Shown here: positions 5,862-10,475 of the stretch, one piece after another
How positions within the stretch are numbered: the first letter of the stretch is position 1
Layout of the letters: each line of letters starts with the position of its first letter
The notes under the pieces: model-generated
What the model was told of the DNA's origin: nothing
Seen by the model: the letters and a program-made list of their open reading frames with translations, nothing else
Databases searched by the model: none
IMG/VR virus record: IMGVR_UViG_3300021962_000727
Coordinates: 1 to 22,050 of that record
From: a virus
Reading direction: 5' to 3' (one strand)
DNA length: 22,050 nucleotides
Program-made: the position numbers and the translations under genes

Positions 5862-6776
5862 ATGGCTATTTCACGCGCACAACTACTGAAGGAACTGCTC
5901 CCCGGTCTGAACGCATTGTTCGGTTTGGAGTATAAGAAGTACGGCGAAGAGCACAAAGAAATCTTCGAATCCGAAACTTCTGAGCGTTCCTTCGAAGAAG
6001 AAACCAAGTTATCTGGCTTCTCTGCCGCTCCTGTCAAGAATGAGGGCTCTGCCATCAGCTATGACAATGCACAAGAAGCATGGACTGCTCGTTACACACA
6101 CGAGACTATCGCGATGGGCTTCAGCTTGACTGAAGAGGCTATCGAAGATAACTTGTATGACTCTTTGTCAGCCCGCTATACAAAGGCTTTGGCCCGCGCT
6201 ATGGCTTACACCAAGCAAGTTAAAGCTGCTGCAATCTTGAACACCGCCTTCACCGGCTCTGGTAACCCCACATACGGTGACGGTAAAGTTCTGTGCGCAA
6301 CAGATCACCCCTTGGTTTCTGGTGGCACCAACAGCAATCGTCCTACAGTCGCTGCTGATTTGAACGAGACTTCCTTGGAAGCCGCCGTTATTCAAATCGC
6401 TGGTTGGACAGACGAGCGCGGTTTGTTGATCGCAGCCAAGCCCACTAAGTTGATTGTTCCCCCAAGCCTGCAATTCGTTGCAACCCGCTTGTTGGAAACT
6501 GAACTGCGTGTTGGCACAACCGACAACGACATCAACGCAATCAAGAACAACGGTTCTGTCGCCGGTGGTTATGCAATTAACCACTACTTGACCGACACCA
6601 ATGCTTGGTTCCTGATGACTGACGTGCCTAACGGCTTGAAGCACTTCGTTCGTACTCCATTGCAGAACAGCATGGACGCTGACTTCGATACAGGCAATGC
6701 CCGTTACAAGTCTCGCGAGCGTTATAGCTTCGGCGTTTCTGATCCTTTGGGCATCTTCGGTTCACCCGGTGCTTAA
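5862..6776 (+). CDS. Major capsid protein (Mu gpT-like, HK97 fold)
   Basis: The 304-residue protein has the features of the gpT-like coat family: an N-terminal arm, a central 'FSLTEEAIEDNLYDSLSARY' helix, 'YGDGKVLCATDHPL' before a long loop, and a C-terminal domain with 'AWFLMTDVPNGLKHFVR' and 'FDTGNARYKSRERYSFGVSDP'. The 'DGK..x(D/E)HPL' segment matches a recognisable feature of Mu gpT-type major head proteins. It has a strong site (AAGGAG, spacing 8) and an intrinsic terminator directly after the stop, so it ends the head operon. No N-terminal protease-cleaved delta domain is obvious. Coat function is well supported by family and position; the gpT subfamily label is from memory. Confidence 0.87.
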   Translation: MAISRAQLLKELLPGLNALFGLEYKKYGEEHKEIFESETSERSFEEETKLSGFSAAPVKNEGSAISYDNAQEAWTARYTHETIAMGFSLTEEAIEDNLYDSLSARYTKALARAMAYTKQVKAAAILNTAFTGSGNPTYGDGKVLCATDHPLVSGGTNSNRPTVAADLNETSLEAAVIQIAGWTDERGLLIAAKPTKLIVPPSLQFVATRLLETELRVGTTDNDINAIKNNGSVAGGYAINHYLTDTNAWFLMTDVPNGLKHFVRTPLQNSMDADFDTGNARYKSRERYSFGVSDPLGIFGSPGA

Positions 6777-6783
6777 TGATTGA

Positions 6784-6814
6784 GAAAAAGGGGCCTTGTG
6801 CCCCTTTTTCTTTT
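6784..6814 (+). terminator. Intrinsic terminator after the major capsid gene
   Basis: A perfect 10-bp stem (6784-6793 with 6801-6810, GAAAAAGGGG paired with CCCCTTTTTC) closes a 7-nt loop and is followed by four more T. The A-tract before and T-tract after make it partly bidirectional. It lies 7 nt past the coat stop codon. Confidence 0.9.
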
Positions 6815-6824
6815 GGTGTATATT
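6796..6824 (+). promoter_or_regulatory. Weak candidate sigma70-type promoter (TTGTGC-17-TATATT)
   Basis: TATATT at 6819-6824 matches the -10 consensus at five of six bases, and TTGTGC lies 17 nt upstream at 6796-6801, matching only TTG of the -35 box. The -35 lies in the loop and stem of the preceding terminator. It would start transcription near 6831, just before the folded leader of the 6914 gene. Evidence is thin; phage late promoters may not follow this consensus. Confidence 0.3.
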
Positions 6825-6833
6825 GTCTTCACT

Positions 6834-6888
6834 CCGGGCTTTCCGGTGCATCAAACAGTCCCGGCTGACGACATACCGATTGATGCAC
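6834..6888 (+). promoter_or_regulatory. Structured leader with inverted repeat and possible H-type pseudoknot
   Basis: GTGCATCAA (6846-6854) is the exact reverse complement of TTGATGCAC (6880-6888), giving a 9-bp stem with a 25-nt loop. CCGGG (6834-6838) can also pair with CCCGG (6860-6864) inside that loop, extended by CT/AG with one bulged T. The two helices interleave in the order needed for an H-type pseudoknot. The ribosome binding site of the next gene (AAGGA near 6902) lies just downstream and unpaired. It could be an mRNA stabiliser, translational switch or protein-binding operator; the function is unknown. Confidence 0.45.
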
Positions 6889-6913
6889 TTCACTTGTATG
6901 TAAGGAACCTATC

Positions 6914-7387
6914 ATGGGAATCGCTACTCACCTTGGCCCTTGGCTGCTTGGTACAACACGTTACACAACTGGCACAGACGCTGCTACTACACGTAACACC
7001 GGCGCAACTATCGTCTCTCAAGACAAAGCTGTTGCTTACAACGACGCCGATGCCACTACCGCATTCTGTCTTCCCGCTGGCTCACGCATTGTGAGTTTGC
7101 AATTCATTACCACTGATGCTTTTGGCGCGGCTACGACAATCACTTTGTCTTTGGCTGGCACCGCTATCACTGGTGCAACAACTGTGACCGATGCAGGTCT
7201 GGTAACGTTTGCTCCTGTGGCTTCTGACGCTGTGGCCACATTGTGGGCCAACACTGGCGCAACTGATAAGTTGTTGACATACACAGTGGCACAAGGCGCT
7301 TCTGATAACGGCGCTGGCGTGTTGGTGGTGAACTATGTTGTGCGTAACTCCGACGGCACAATGTACCAAACATCTTCACAGGTCTAA
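6914..7387 (+). CDS. Probable small structural protein (beta-rich, own transcription unit)
   Basis: A 157-residue protein rich in Thr, Ala, Gly and Val. Strand-like repeats such as 'AATTITLSLAGTAITGATTVTDAGLVTFAP' and the ending 'GAGVLVVNYVVRNSDGTMYQTSSQV' point to a jelly-roll or Ig-like beta sandwich. It has no signal peptide or membrane segment. The gene is bracketed by intrinsic terminators at 6784-6814 and 7396-7415 and has a long structured leader, unusual in this otherwise gapless operon. That suggests separately controlled, perhaps abundant, expression. A capsid decoration or fibre-base protein is my inference. I recall similar proteins next to coat genes in other phages, without a function. 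Confidence 0.65.
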   Translation: MGIATHLGPWLLGTTRYTTGTDAATTRNTGATIVSQDKAVAYNDADATTAFCLPAGSRIVSLQFITTDAFGAATTITLSLAGTAITGATTVTDAGLVTFAPVASDAVATLWANTGATDKLLTYTVAQGASDNGAGVLVVNYVVRNSDGTMYQTSSQV

Positions 7388-7395
7388 TTGGTCTC

Positions 7396-7415
7396 GGGGC
7401 TTCGGCCCCTGTTTT
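7396..7415 (+). terminator. Intrinsic terminator with UUCG tetraloop
   Basis: GGGGC (7396-7400) and GCCCC (7405-7409) pair around a TTCG loop, the most stable tetraloop class, followed by TGTTTTA. The T-tract is short and interrupted, so termination is probably partial. The stem ends 7 nt before the next ribosome binding site (AAAGGAG, 7416-7422). Confidence 0.65.
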
Positions 7416-7429
7416 AAAGGAGATTGATT

Positions 7430-7945
7430 ATGATGCAAACGGACGTAAAACAAGGGCATCTAAACCAAAGTGGTTTTTTTGTTCTTGGGCGAAACCGCGT
7501 TAAAGGCATTTCGTTTTTTGGTAGTGGTACGGATGGCACTGTCGTGTTGTTTGATACTGCTTCTGTTCCAGTAACTTCTAGCGTAACTTATGCTCGTACA
7601 GGCACGGCTGTGACGGTAACTAAAGTTGCTCACGGTTTAATAACTGGCGATGTTGTTGGTATTCACTTTGACAGCAATGCAAGTCAATCAGCAACTGATG
7701 GTAACTACACCATTACTCGCACGGGCGCAGATACCTTTACGTTGACGGACATTAACAGTGGAAACATAACTTCTACTGCGGCTGCGTATGTAAGTGGTGG
7801 CGGTCGCTGGTTGATGACGTATGAGATTGATGCTACTGATACTTTTAGCAATGCCCCCATCATTCCGGGTGAGGGCGTGTTGGCAGTCAACGGTATTTAT
7901 GCGCTTATGACCAACATTGATTCAACACAAATTTATTATGGCTGA
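7430..7945 (+). CDS. Beta-domain structural protein with E1-FCCH-like repeat
   Basis: The 171-residue protein starts at ATG 7430, 7 nt after AAAGGAG; an upstream in-frame TTG at 7424 lies too close to that site. Residues about 50-110 ('TAVTVTKVAHGLITGDVVGIHF' to 'DGNYTITRTGADTFTLTDI') match the recurrent phage virion module that databases label ubiquitin-activating enzyme E1 FCCH domain. That label reflects fold similarity only; no ubiquitin function is implied. The module is usual in phage tail and fibre proteins. The C-terminal 'TFSNAPIIPGEGVLAVNGIYALM' is also strand-rich. The stop overlaps the glycosyltransferase start by 8 nt, so the two are coupled and the protein might be a glycosylation target or simply a neighbour. 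Confidence 0.7.
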   Translation: MMQTDVKQGHLNQSGFFVLGRNRVKGISFFGSGTDGTVVLFDTASVPVTSSVTYARTGTAVTVTKVAHGLITGDVVGIHFDSNASQSATDGNYTITRTGADTFTLTDINSGNITSTAAAYVSGGGRWLMTYEIDATDTFSNAPIIPGEGVLAVNGIYALMTNIDSTQIYYG

Positions 7946-9503: not shown

Positions 9504-10475
9504 ATGGCTAAAAAACCTATGAAGTTCAAACGCTACGAAGGTGGCGGTGAAGTTGAAGAATCCGCAGCCAAACAACGCGGGTTGGATATATCCAATAAAG
9601 AAAAGCCTGTTGGCTTCTTTGAGCGTATTCGTATGGGCAACATCGATGACCCTTCTTCTGAAGCGTACAAGCGCTTTGGTGCCGGTCGTGGCCGTGCCGC
9701 CCCTGCCGCCGAGGAAGATCGTCCCCGCCCCGTGCCCCGTCCTCCCGCAAAACCAAACCCCATTTTTGCCGCTAGTGAAGAGCAAGGTAAGCGTCAGCCT
9801 TCTGGCGATGCAAGCGTAGCGGAAGACTATTCAGGCGCACGCACTAAGCCGATTATCACTACTGCGGAAAAGAAACCTGCCGCATCTAAACCTGCGTCAA
9901 AACCCGCTGAGGCAAAGCCAAAAATGGAAGCGGTCAGTAAGTCATCGTATGACGGCCCATTGCGCGGTATGCGTAGCGATATGCGTTCTTCAGGCGTAGA
10001 CAAGCGTGGTGAGACTGACATGTCTAACTACAAGCCACGTCGTTCTTCTGGTTCTTCTAGCACGGATGGGCGTGGTGAGACTGATATGTCTAACTACAAG
10101 CCACGTCGTTCTTCTGGTTCTTCTAGCGCGGATACACGTGGTGAGACAGACATGTCTAATTACAAACCCCGCCGTTCTTCTGGCTCCTCAAGCACGGATG
10201 GGCGCGGTGAGACTGATATGTCTAACTACAAACCCCGCCGTTCTTCTGACGCTCCTGACATGTCTAACTACACTCCCCGCCGTACTCCCGGCCCTTTGAG
10301 TGACGTTCGTCGCCCCGGCACTAACGTCAATTACGAAAACGACGATACGTCTGATATGTCGTTTAGAAAAGGCGGTAAAGTTAAAAAGTACGCTTCCGGC
10401 GGTATGGTATCTGCCGCATCTAAACGCGCCGATGGTATTGCCTCCAAAGGCAAGACACGTTGCAAGATTTGCTAA
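9504..10475 (+). CDS. Low-complexity repeat protein with 'ADGIA' tail
   Basis: A 323-residue protein, probably mostly disordered. The N-terminus is 'AKKPMKFKRYEGGGEV'. Residues 60-145 are rich in Pro, Ala, Arg and Lys. Residues 168-255 hold four copies of a 22-residue unit built on 'RGETDMSNYKPRRSSGSSS', the fourth cut short and followed by a degenerate 'DMSNYTPRRTPGP'. The tail has 'FRKGGKVKKYASGGMV', then 'KRADGIASKGKTR' and two Cys in the last four residues. The ATG follows AAGGAG by 6-7 nt. The Arg-Arg-Ser-Ser repeats suggest binding to DNA, RNA or an acidic partner. I recall proteins with similar tails in uncultured phages, but no function. A virion-internal or DNA-condensing protein is a guess. 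Confidence 0.8.
   Translation: MAKKPMKFKRYEGGGEVEESAAKQRGLDISNKEKPVGFFERIRMGNIDDPSSEAYKRFGAGRGRAAPAAEEDRPRPVPRPPAKPNPIFAASEEQGKRQPSGDASVAEDYSGARTKPIITTAEKKPAASKPASKPAEAKPKMEAVSKSSYDGPLRGMRSDMRSSGVDKRGETDMSNYKPRRSSGSSSTDGRGETDMSNYKPRRSSGSSSADTRGETDMSNYKPRRSSGSSSTDGRGETDMSNYKPRRSSDAPDMSNYTPRRTPGPLSDVRRPGTNVNYENDDTSDMSFRKGGKVKKYASGGMVSAASKRADGIASKGKTRCKIC
10005..10247 (+). repeat. In-frame 66-nt tandem repeat
   Basis: Copies begin at 10005, 10071, 10137 and 10203, each 66 nt (22 codons), with the fourth complete for about 45 nt. Copies 1 and 2 and copies 3 and 4 share synonymous codon choices (AAGCCACGTCGT versus AAACCCCGCCGT), suggesting stepwise duplication or partial gene conversion. Confidence 0.92.
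10425..10460 (+). repeat. Dispersed 'ADGIAxKGKT' coding repeat, copy 2
   Basis: Encodes RADGIASKGKTR, five codons before the stop region of the 9504 gene. Confidence 0.85.

Follow-up and report, generated by a model that had tools for sequence, protein, structure and literature searches.

The 22,050-nt stretch of viral DNA analysed here (the window) carries, between the gene for its major capsid protein and a probable cement protein gene, a leader that, judged by its relatives, forms a real pseudoknot and one larger than first described. Structure and position are supported comparatively, the mechanism is inferred. On balance, and with considerable reservation, we favour the reading of a conserved structured 5' leader of the cement mRNA that controls translation initiation in cis, for which there are no expression, probing or binding data. 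An earlier note on this DNA had described a 9-bp repeat and a second helix as a possible H-type pseudoknot in the leader of an isolated late gene, with translation, mRNA stability or the binding of a regulator as conceivable functions. Both helices lie exactly where it had placed them (Table 1) and do interleave, but a simple two-helix H-type does not describe the fold, which consists of P1, P2 and P3 as kissing hairpins together with P4; P3 and P4 were absent from that note. The 9-bp repeat corresponds to P2, which is lengthened by one G-U pair (G6845-T6889). No description of this leader was found in the literature searched.

Table 1 Features of the window in and around the leader.
Feature	Positions	Strand	Basis
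Major capsid protein gene (HK97-type, Mu gpT-like)	5862-6776	+	phrog_371, E 1.4e-22
Terminator-like hairpin 3' of capsid gene	6786-6809	+	terminator scan
Possible -35 element TTGTGC, 17 nt upstream of -10	6796-6801	+	family profile; inference
-10 element TATATT; predicted start A6831	6819-6824	+	family profile; inference, no transcript data
P1 5' strand CCGGG	6834-6838	+	covariation
P2 5' strand GGTGCATCAA, loop-loop helix	6845-6854	+	covariation
9-bp perfect inverted repeat, GTGCATCAA / TTGATGCAC	6846-6854 / 6880-6888	+	sequence
P4 5' strand CAG	6856-6858	+	middle pair covaries AU/UA/CG/GC
P1 3' strand CCCGG, within P4 loop	6860-6864	+	covariation
P4 3' strand CTG	6865-6867	+	covariation
P3 5' strand ACATAC	6871-6876	+	covariation
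P2 3' strand TTGATGCACT	6880-6889	+	covariation
P3 3' strand GTATGT, terminating at Shine-Dalgarno	6896-6901	+	covariation; P3/Shine-Dalgarno register
Shine-Dalgarno sequence AAGGA	6902-6906	+	sequence; position relative to P3
Probable cement (decoration) protein gene, 157 aa, MGIATHLGPW N-terminus and jelly-roll domain	6914-7387	+	AlphaFold model
Terminator-like hairpin 3' of cement-type gene	7396-7409	+	terminator scan

Related leaders show the helix order P1-P2-P4-P1'-P4'-P3-P2'-P3'. Without P4 the order is A B A' C B' C', which, together with the compensatory changes described below, meets the membership test for the kissing-hairpin topology. On this comparative basis the topology is that of an intramolecular kissing hairpin, in which the loops of the P1 and P3 hairpins are joined via the 9-10 bp P2, and the small hairpin P4 encloses P1'. 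An alternative hairpin, P0 (CCGG...CCGG, 6834-6837/6843-6846), considered as a switch partner of P1, is missing by eye from the divergent leaders L048, L062 and L207 and is thus not general.

Taken alone, the window leader is less compelling. Of 1000 dinucleotide shuffles of 6777-6913, 2 contained an interleaved perfect 9-bp and 5-bp pair, as did 3 of the 323 overlapping stretches of 137 nt taken from the window; the two-helix pattern in one sequence is only moderately surprising and insufficient to settle the question, and the case for the pseudoknot therefore depends on comparison. The complete three-helix arrangement was obtained in 0 of 1000 shuffles of the window leader. Nested folding of the leader indicated no excess stability (MFE -23.3 kcal/mol, z +1.12) and missed the knot. 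Rfam 15, known riboswitch and leader families included, gave no window match at the gathering score; weak matches to SorX and sX14 near the terminator were discarded, as they fall below their gathering scores and track the terminator hairpin. A DNA search of phage records with the window gave no match, and the same search with another leader gave short chance matches only.

Related leaders were collected by two routes. A protein search with the 6914 gene yielded 69 viral loci (L001-L069), and inspection of their upstream 170 nt revealed the same element in different letters. A DNA pattern made from the most constant stretch of the element yielded at least 120 further loci; there the P4-P3 letters, AC and GA included, are preset by the pattern, so conservation at these positions is no evidence. 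Alignment A1, the basis of model R1, was made up of 60 chosen leaders, 26 from the 44 selected by gene and 34 from the 106 found by pattern; R1 matches on these 60 hold by construction. Among the matches listed, R1 finds 119 of 120 pattern loci (99 of 100 and 20 of 20), and the sole miss, L120, is a chance pattern match. The element is detected by R1 in 51 of the 63 gene-selected sources searched, with four more rows weak and elsewhere; seven of the 70 sources (the window and L001-L069), mostly duplicates or cut-off leaders, had been omitted. Twenty of 24 whole records contained an R1 match, 19 of them a single one and one (G009) two; the match in HTVC027P (W04) is weak and elsewhere in the record. 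A genome scan returned 14 loci, with elements in L193 (R1 E 2.4e-19) and L194 (1.7e-22) and a doubtful one in L196 (6.5e-5); the other 11 match the pattern stretch alone and were rejected.

Forty of the 44 unique gene-selected leaders conform to a descriptor that requires the three helices at bounded spacing. This descriptor misses L056, which R1 finds at 91.4 bits, as well as L046, L049 and L054, where the first gene found is without the element and a neighbouring second cement-type gene has it. These paired genes lie at 716 and 2153 (L046), 2501 and 3938 (L049) and 2501 and 3072 (L054), with the knotted leader only on the second. Applied to 213 loci, the descriptor scored 224 hits, of which 182 come with a Shine-Dalgarno sequence and a start codon; one dinucleotide-shuffled copy per locus yielded 26 and 11, respectively. 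Most of these loci were picked for having the element, and the comparison thus addresses specificity only.

Pairing is well maintained across the leaders. Among 60 of them, drawn mostly from the main group, the paired fraction of cells is 95.5%, whereas shuffles reach 83.4% and slid controls 29-37%. In 35 more diverse leaders found by R1 (A4; 34 of the 44 gene-selected loci plus L207), 97.8% of pair cells are paired, against 24-41% in slid controls, and two-sided changes occur in 18 of 24 pairs and in all four helices. A4 excludes ten gene-selected leaders missed by R1 (L046, L048, L049, L051, L055, L058, L060, L062, L063 and L065). P1 and P3, which were not used in fitting A4, are 97.1% paired, with 43 two-sided cells against 11.8 in shuffles. 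The sequences share kinship, so that these counts do not represent independent events. Compensatory changes in related leaders, which the earlier note had named as the test of its pseudoknot, are nevertheless present. A chance origin of the inverted repeats, or an element acting at the level of DNA, would be compatible with a two-helix pattern that is only moderately rare in a single sequence, but it is contradicted by the A4 covariation and the pairing of P1 and P3 and by the fixed orientation upstream of the gene, and appears hardly credible. At many positions there are G-U pairs, and these would read A-C on the opposite strand; the structure therefore resides in the plus-strand RNA.

The strongest evidence, although comparative, is the recurrence of the same fold order with very different sequence. 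The descriptor fits the leaders of DSL-LC04, of the SAR11 phages HTVC023P and HTVC027P and of 023Pt_psg01, and the metagenomic leaders L047, L048, L055, L062 and L066 have the same helix order and similar spacing with very different letters. Shuffles of each of these divergent leaders, from named phages and metagenomes alike, give any descriptor hit in 0-5 of 1000 cases. The descriptor found no hit in the leaders of Pag-Yong1, CRP-902, L046, L049 and the first gene of L054, or in the leaders tested from QDWS535 and ct2G2228. Planktothrix phage Pag-Yong1 (L205, 3430-3515) shows a long GC palindromic helix and might also pair its Shine-Dalgarno sequence and start codon; by eye it resembles a further variant of the element, but it fits neither the strict nor the relaxed descriptor.

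Upstream of 142 unique descriptor hits, which contain a few chance hits (e.g. L147), the profile, numbered from P1, has an excess of TTG between -38 and -36 and of TATATT between -15 and -10, with an A at -3 in 72%. We infer, without transcript data, a promoter of sigma-70-like type, its two elements 17 nt apart, from which transcription is predicted to start 3 nt upstream of P1. The -10-like site is present in 110 of the 142 hits and absent from most of one divergent clade. In the window the -35 candidate matches in 3 of 6 letters only, and a simple promoter scan listed none around the element. Within the divergent clade (L047, L050-L055, L058, L060, L061, L063, L065, L066 and L069) there is no clear -10 at the usual place, and the element closely follows either the preceding gene or a terminator-like hairpin; the transcript start may arise differently in this clade. 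At the other end of the element, the GG core of the Shine-Dalgarno sequence lies 2 nt 3' of P3 in 108 of 123 leaders, within P3 in 10, and 0, 1, 5 or 6 nt 3' of it in the remaining five.

A predicted start only about 3 nt before P1, behind a well-placed promoter-like profile, and a GG adjacent to P3 but outside it in most leaders could reflect a purely constitutive role. The fold would then armour a strongly transcribed mRNA against 5'-end-dependent decay, with the Shine-Dalgarno sequence open beside a stacked helix and no regulation. This remains possible but is rather doubtful. A simple hairpin would be enough for such protection, whereas the fold is far more elaborate and its spacing is kept across divergent sequences. 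Furthermore, P3 does include the GG in some leaders, one divergent clade has no clear promoter upstream of the element, and the start codon is paired in the related Mu-gpT-DE leaders discussed below.

The genomic surroundings of the element are partly conserved. Of the 122 located elements, 88 are preceded by a terminator-like hairpin (10 of 100 shuffled stretches also pass), but only 26 have one downstream of the gene; the isolation attributed to the late gene thus holds only in part across the family. Terminator-like sites on both flanks in the window, and the sRNA type that Rfam assigns to Mu-gpT-DE, could point to a transcription element (antitermination on polymerase) or a separate small RNA. 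This is very unlikely, given that the register of P3 tracks the Shine-Dalgarno sequence, that the site after the gene is mostly missing, and that the pairing of Mu-gpT-DE takes in the start codon. Of the 160 located elements with room, 129 have a major capsid homolog ending no more than 600 nt upstream; in 30 it lies at 615-1416 nt, and in one it was not found. In the window the capsid product matches Pfam PF25209 and PF10124 above cut-off and has homologs in 21 phage records.

Judged from a predicted structure and from its position close to the major capsid gene, the 6914 gene most probably codes for a jelly-roll cement protein of the capsid. Its product, 157 aa long, was assigned to no PHROGs family, and no Pfam match exceeds the cut-off. 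The AlphaFold model (pLDDT 80.6, first 30 residues of low confidence) has its best PDB matches in the cement proteins of KHP30 (7dn2, Z 10.8), KHP40 (7dou, 9.7), GP4 (8h89, 9.2) and Pam1 (7eel, 8.7), with rmsd 2.6-4.2 and 103-115 aligned. The test for a jelly-roll/Ig-like fold is met, modestly; the unrelated jelly-roll capsid of satellite panicum mosaic virus is close behind (Z 8.3), and Foldseek with the model gave no match at E <= 0.001. The location beside the major capsid gene meets the membership test for cement proteins, and in DSL-LC04 the gene in the same slot, behind the same kind of leader, is annotated as cement protein. Among the matches listed, a start codon and a cement-type N-terminus come after 116 of the 120 stretches found by pattern. 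The four exceptions comprise a cut-off stretch, two near variants and the chance match L120. A structure model for the MANTTF family, of low confidence (pLDDT 66.7), matches the Pam1 cement protein with Z 9.5.

The cement-type proteins of L070-L189 share a common short N-terminus (TTFxGPV, THLGPW, STTQSIWRSGGGD) and have a very different remainder, as if domains had been swapped behind one leader. Elsewhere in the window, the open reading frame at 9504-10475 contains several near-identical repeats of about 20 residues (RGETDMSNYKPRRSSGSSS).

In the reading favoured here, transcription is inferred to begin just ahead of P1; the P1 and P3 hairpins fold and are locked by the loop-loop helix P2, and P4 closes around the 3' strand of P1, the folding steps being supported by covariation. 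As P3 abuts or, in the minority of leaders, covers the Shine-Dalgarno sequence, the 30S subunit should either compete with the fold at this site or cooperate with it. Such control would match cement to major capsid protein and is probably mediated by a trans-acting factor, e.g. a capsid component, all of which is inferred and untested. Additionally, the compact 5' end may slow mRNA decay. Feedback by a capsid component is a guess, made because matched protein amounts are needed. In at least one related type of head, that of GP4, there are 540 copies each of capsid and cement protein (PMC9698820), and with such equal numbers a ratio-setting leader becomes a concrete, testable idea.

Translational control is supported by Mu-gpT-DE, whose helices take in the Shine-Dalgarno GG and, by covariation, the start codon. 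Against it, the Shine-Dalgarno sequence adjoins P3 and is not inside it in most members, the window included, so the fold need not block ribosomes, and an open site might be expected for an abundant virion protein. Some cement-type genes are without the element (L046, L049 and the first copy in L054), and the leaders tested in QDWS535, ct2G2228, CRP-902 and Pag-Yong1 do not fit the descriptor. Alternatively, a small molecule or ion could bind the core and toggle P3. A compact pseudoknot at the ribosome-binding site would suit such a metabolite riboswitch, as would the unpaired A after the first P2 strand, present in 123 of 133 canonical descriptor hits and not set by the search pattern. There are no ligand data, however, no Rfam riboswitch matched in the window and 17 further sources, and the downstream genes look cement-type structural and suggest no ligand; this explanation is unlikely.

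Cis-acting control of translation thus remains the preferred reading, and its closest parallel is the Mu-gpT-DE RNA (Rfam RF03012). The window RNA is not a member of this family, with no match at the gathering score (49 bits) and none up to E 10 in 6700-7500. In the Rfam scan of 17 further sources the single match was Mu-gpT-DE in Roseobacter phage CRP-902 (L209), in the same slot and in place of the kissing-hairpin element. A Mu-gpT-DE pattern search yielded at least 120 viral loci (121 with the CRP-901 locus, one match each). The RNA follows a capsid homolog in 104 of 108 loci with room, among the matches listed, and the genes behind it begin with MANTTFxGPV or similar. Fifty of 52 unique leaders in a protein-selected set fit a loose Mu-gpT-DE core (23 the exact pattern), and the other two, L398 and L408, fit the kissing-hairpin descriptor instead. 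R1 found nothing in Mu-gpT-DE leaders (51 sources, E up to 10).

The Mu-gpT-DE linker UAGCCA is complementary to the start region AUGGCUA. A search for linkers with a non-G third position, with the start codon left free, found at least 120. Among the matches listed, 118 of 120 have C at this position, and all 117 of these with a readable start have G at the matching place in codon 2; of the remaining two, L515 has A and no pairing and the other is a chance match. A second linker search gave three finds, one of them a true leader in which CUCA pairs with UGAG. All four linker/start-codon pairs form in 206 of 207 unique leaders, compared to 125.8 on average and 144 at most after shuffling; this count is inflated by kinship, and 17 matches without a cement-type start were skipped. 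An earlier version of the count stood at 202 of 214; it listed seven mismatches at the third linker position, of which five are nearer in-frame ATGs. The covarying linker/start pairs are GCCA/UGGC, CCCA/UGGG and CUCA/UGAG (L213-L333, L334-L413, L414-L534). Mu-gpT-DE would thus have an apparent start-codon pseudoknot, its helix absent from Rfam's model. An improved fold of this RNA has extra supported pairs, not specified in the available portion of the source (PMC7657543). The start-codon helix was not found in the literature searched, and whether it is unpublished cannot be said.

Both RNAs lie between a Mu gpT-like capsid gene and a cement-type gene, and the window meets this slot test. Their common core, assigned by eye and in part preset by the search patterns, consists of an outer helix enclosing a hairpin, with A before and AC after the hairpin, then the first strand of a second helix that reaches the ribosome-binding site, and GA before the return strand of the outer helix. 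Mu-gpT-DE differs in its 53-nt model, the lack of P1, its long hairpin, a short outer helix (CCUG/CAGG) with the Shine-Dalgarno GG inside it, and a second helix that pairs the start codon; in the window P2' ends well before the Shine-Dalgarno sequence, which leaves the GG outside the outer helix. The window RNA is in the same place and may well work alike. Perhaps both belong to one RNA superfamily that weaves the ribosome-binding site of cement genes into a pseudoknot and sets the cement:capsid ratio by capsid-component feedback, a proposal we regard as tentative.

If true, phages with an abundant ocean group among them would share one translational switch for virion stoichiometry; the HTVC023P type reportedly makes up about 7.59% of viromic reads (PMC12753301). 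The start-codon helix would also supply the Mu-gpT-DE family with a likely mechanism. Structured capsid-gene leaders in double-stranded DNA phages are, to our knowledge, barely charted, and the present fold is conserved far beyond sequence, from the lake phage DSL-LC04 to SAR11 phages.

Leader pseudoknots are established in other settings. In riboswitches of the preQ1-II and SAM-II type a pseudoknot engages the Shine-Dalgarno region; their helix order is different, and the window has neither an Rfam match nor evidence for a ligand. The leaders of rpsO and other ribosomal-protein genes exert autogenous translational control via a pseudoknot. They involve ribosomal proteins and an unrelated RNA, and the proposed analogy is limited to autogenous control, the feedback being inferred here. 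In T4 gene 32 a leader pseudoknot is tied to translational control of an abundant phage protein. It is H-type, farther from the start site and belongs to a different gene, but shares with the present leader a pseudoknot ahead of an abundant phage protein.
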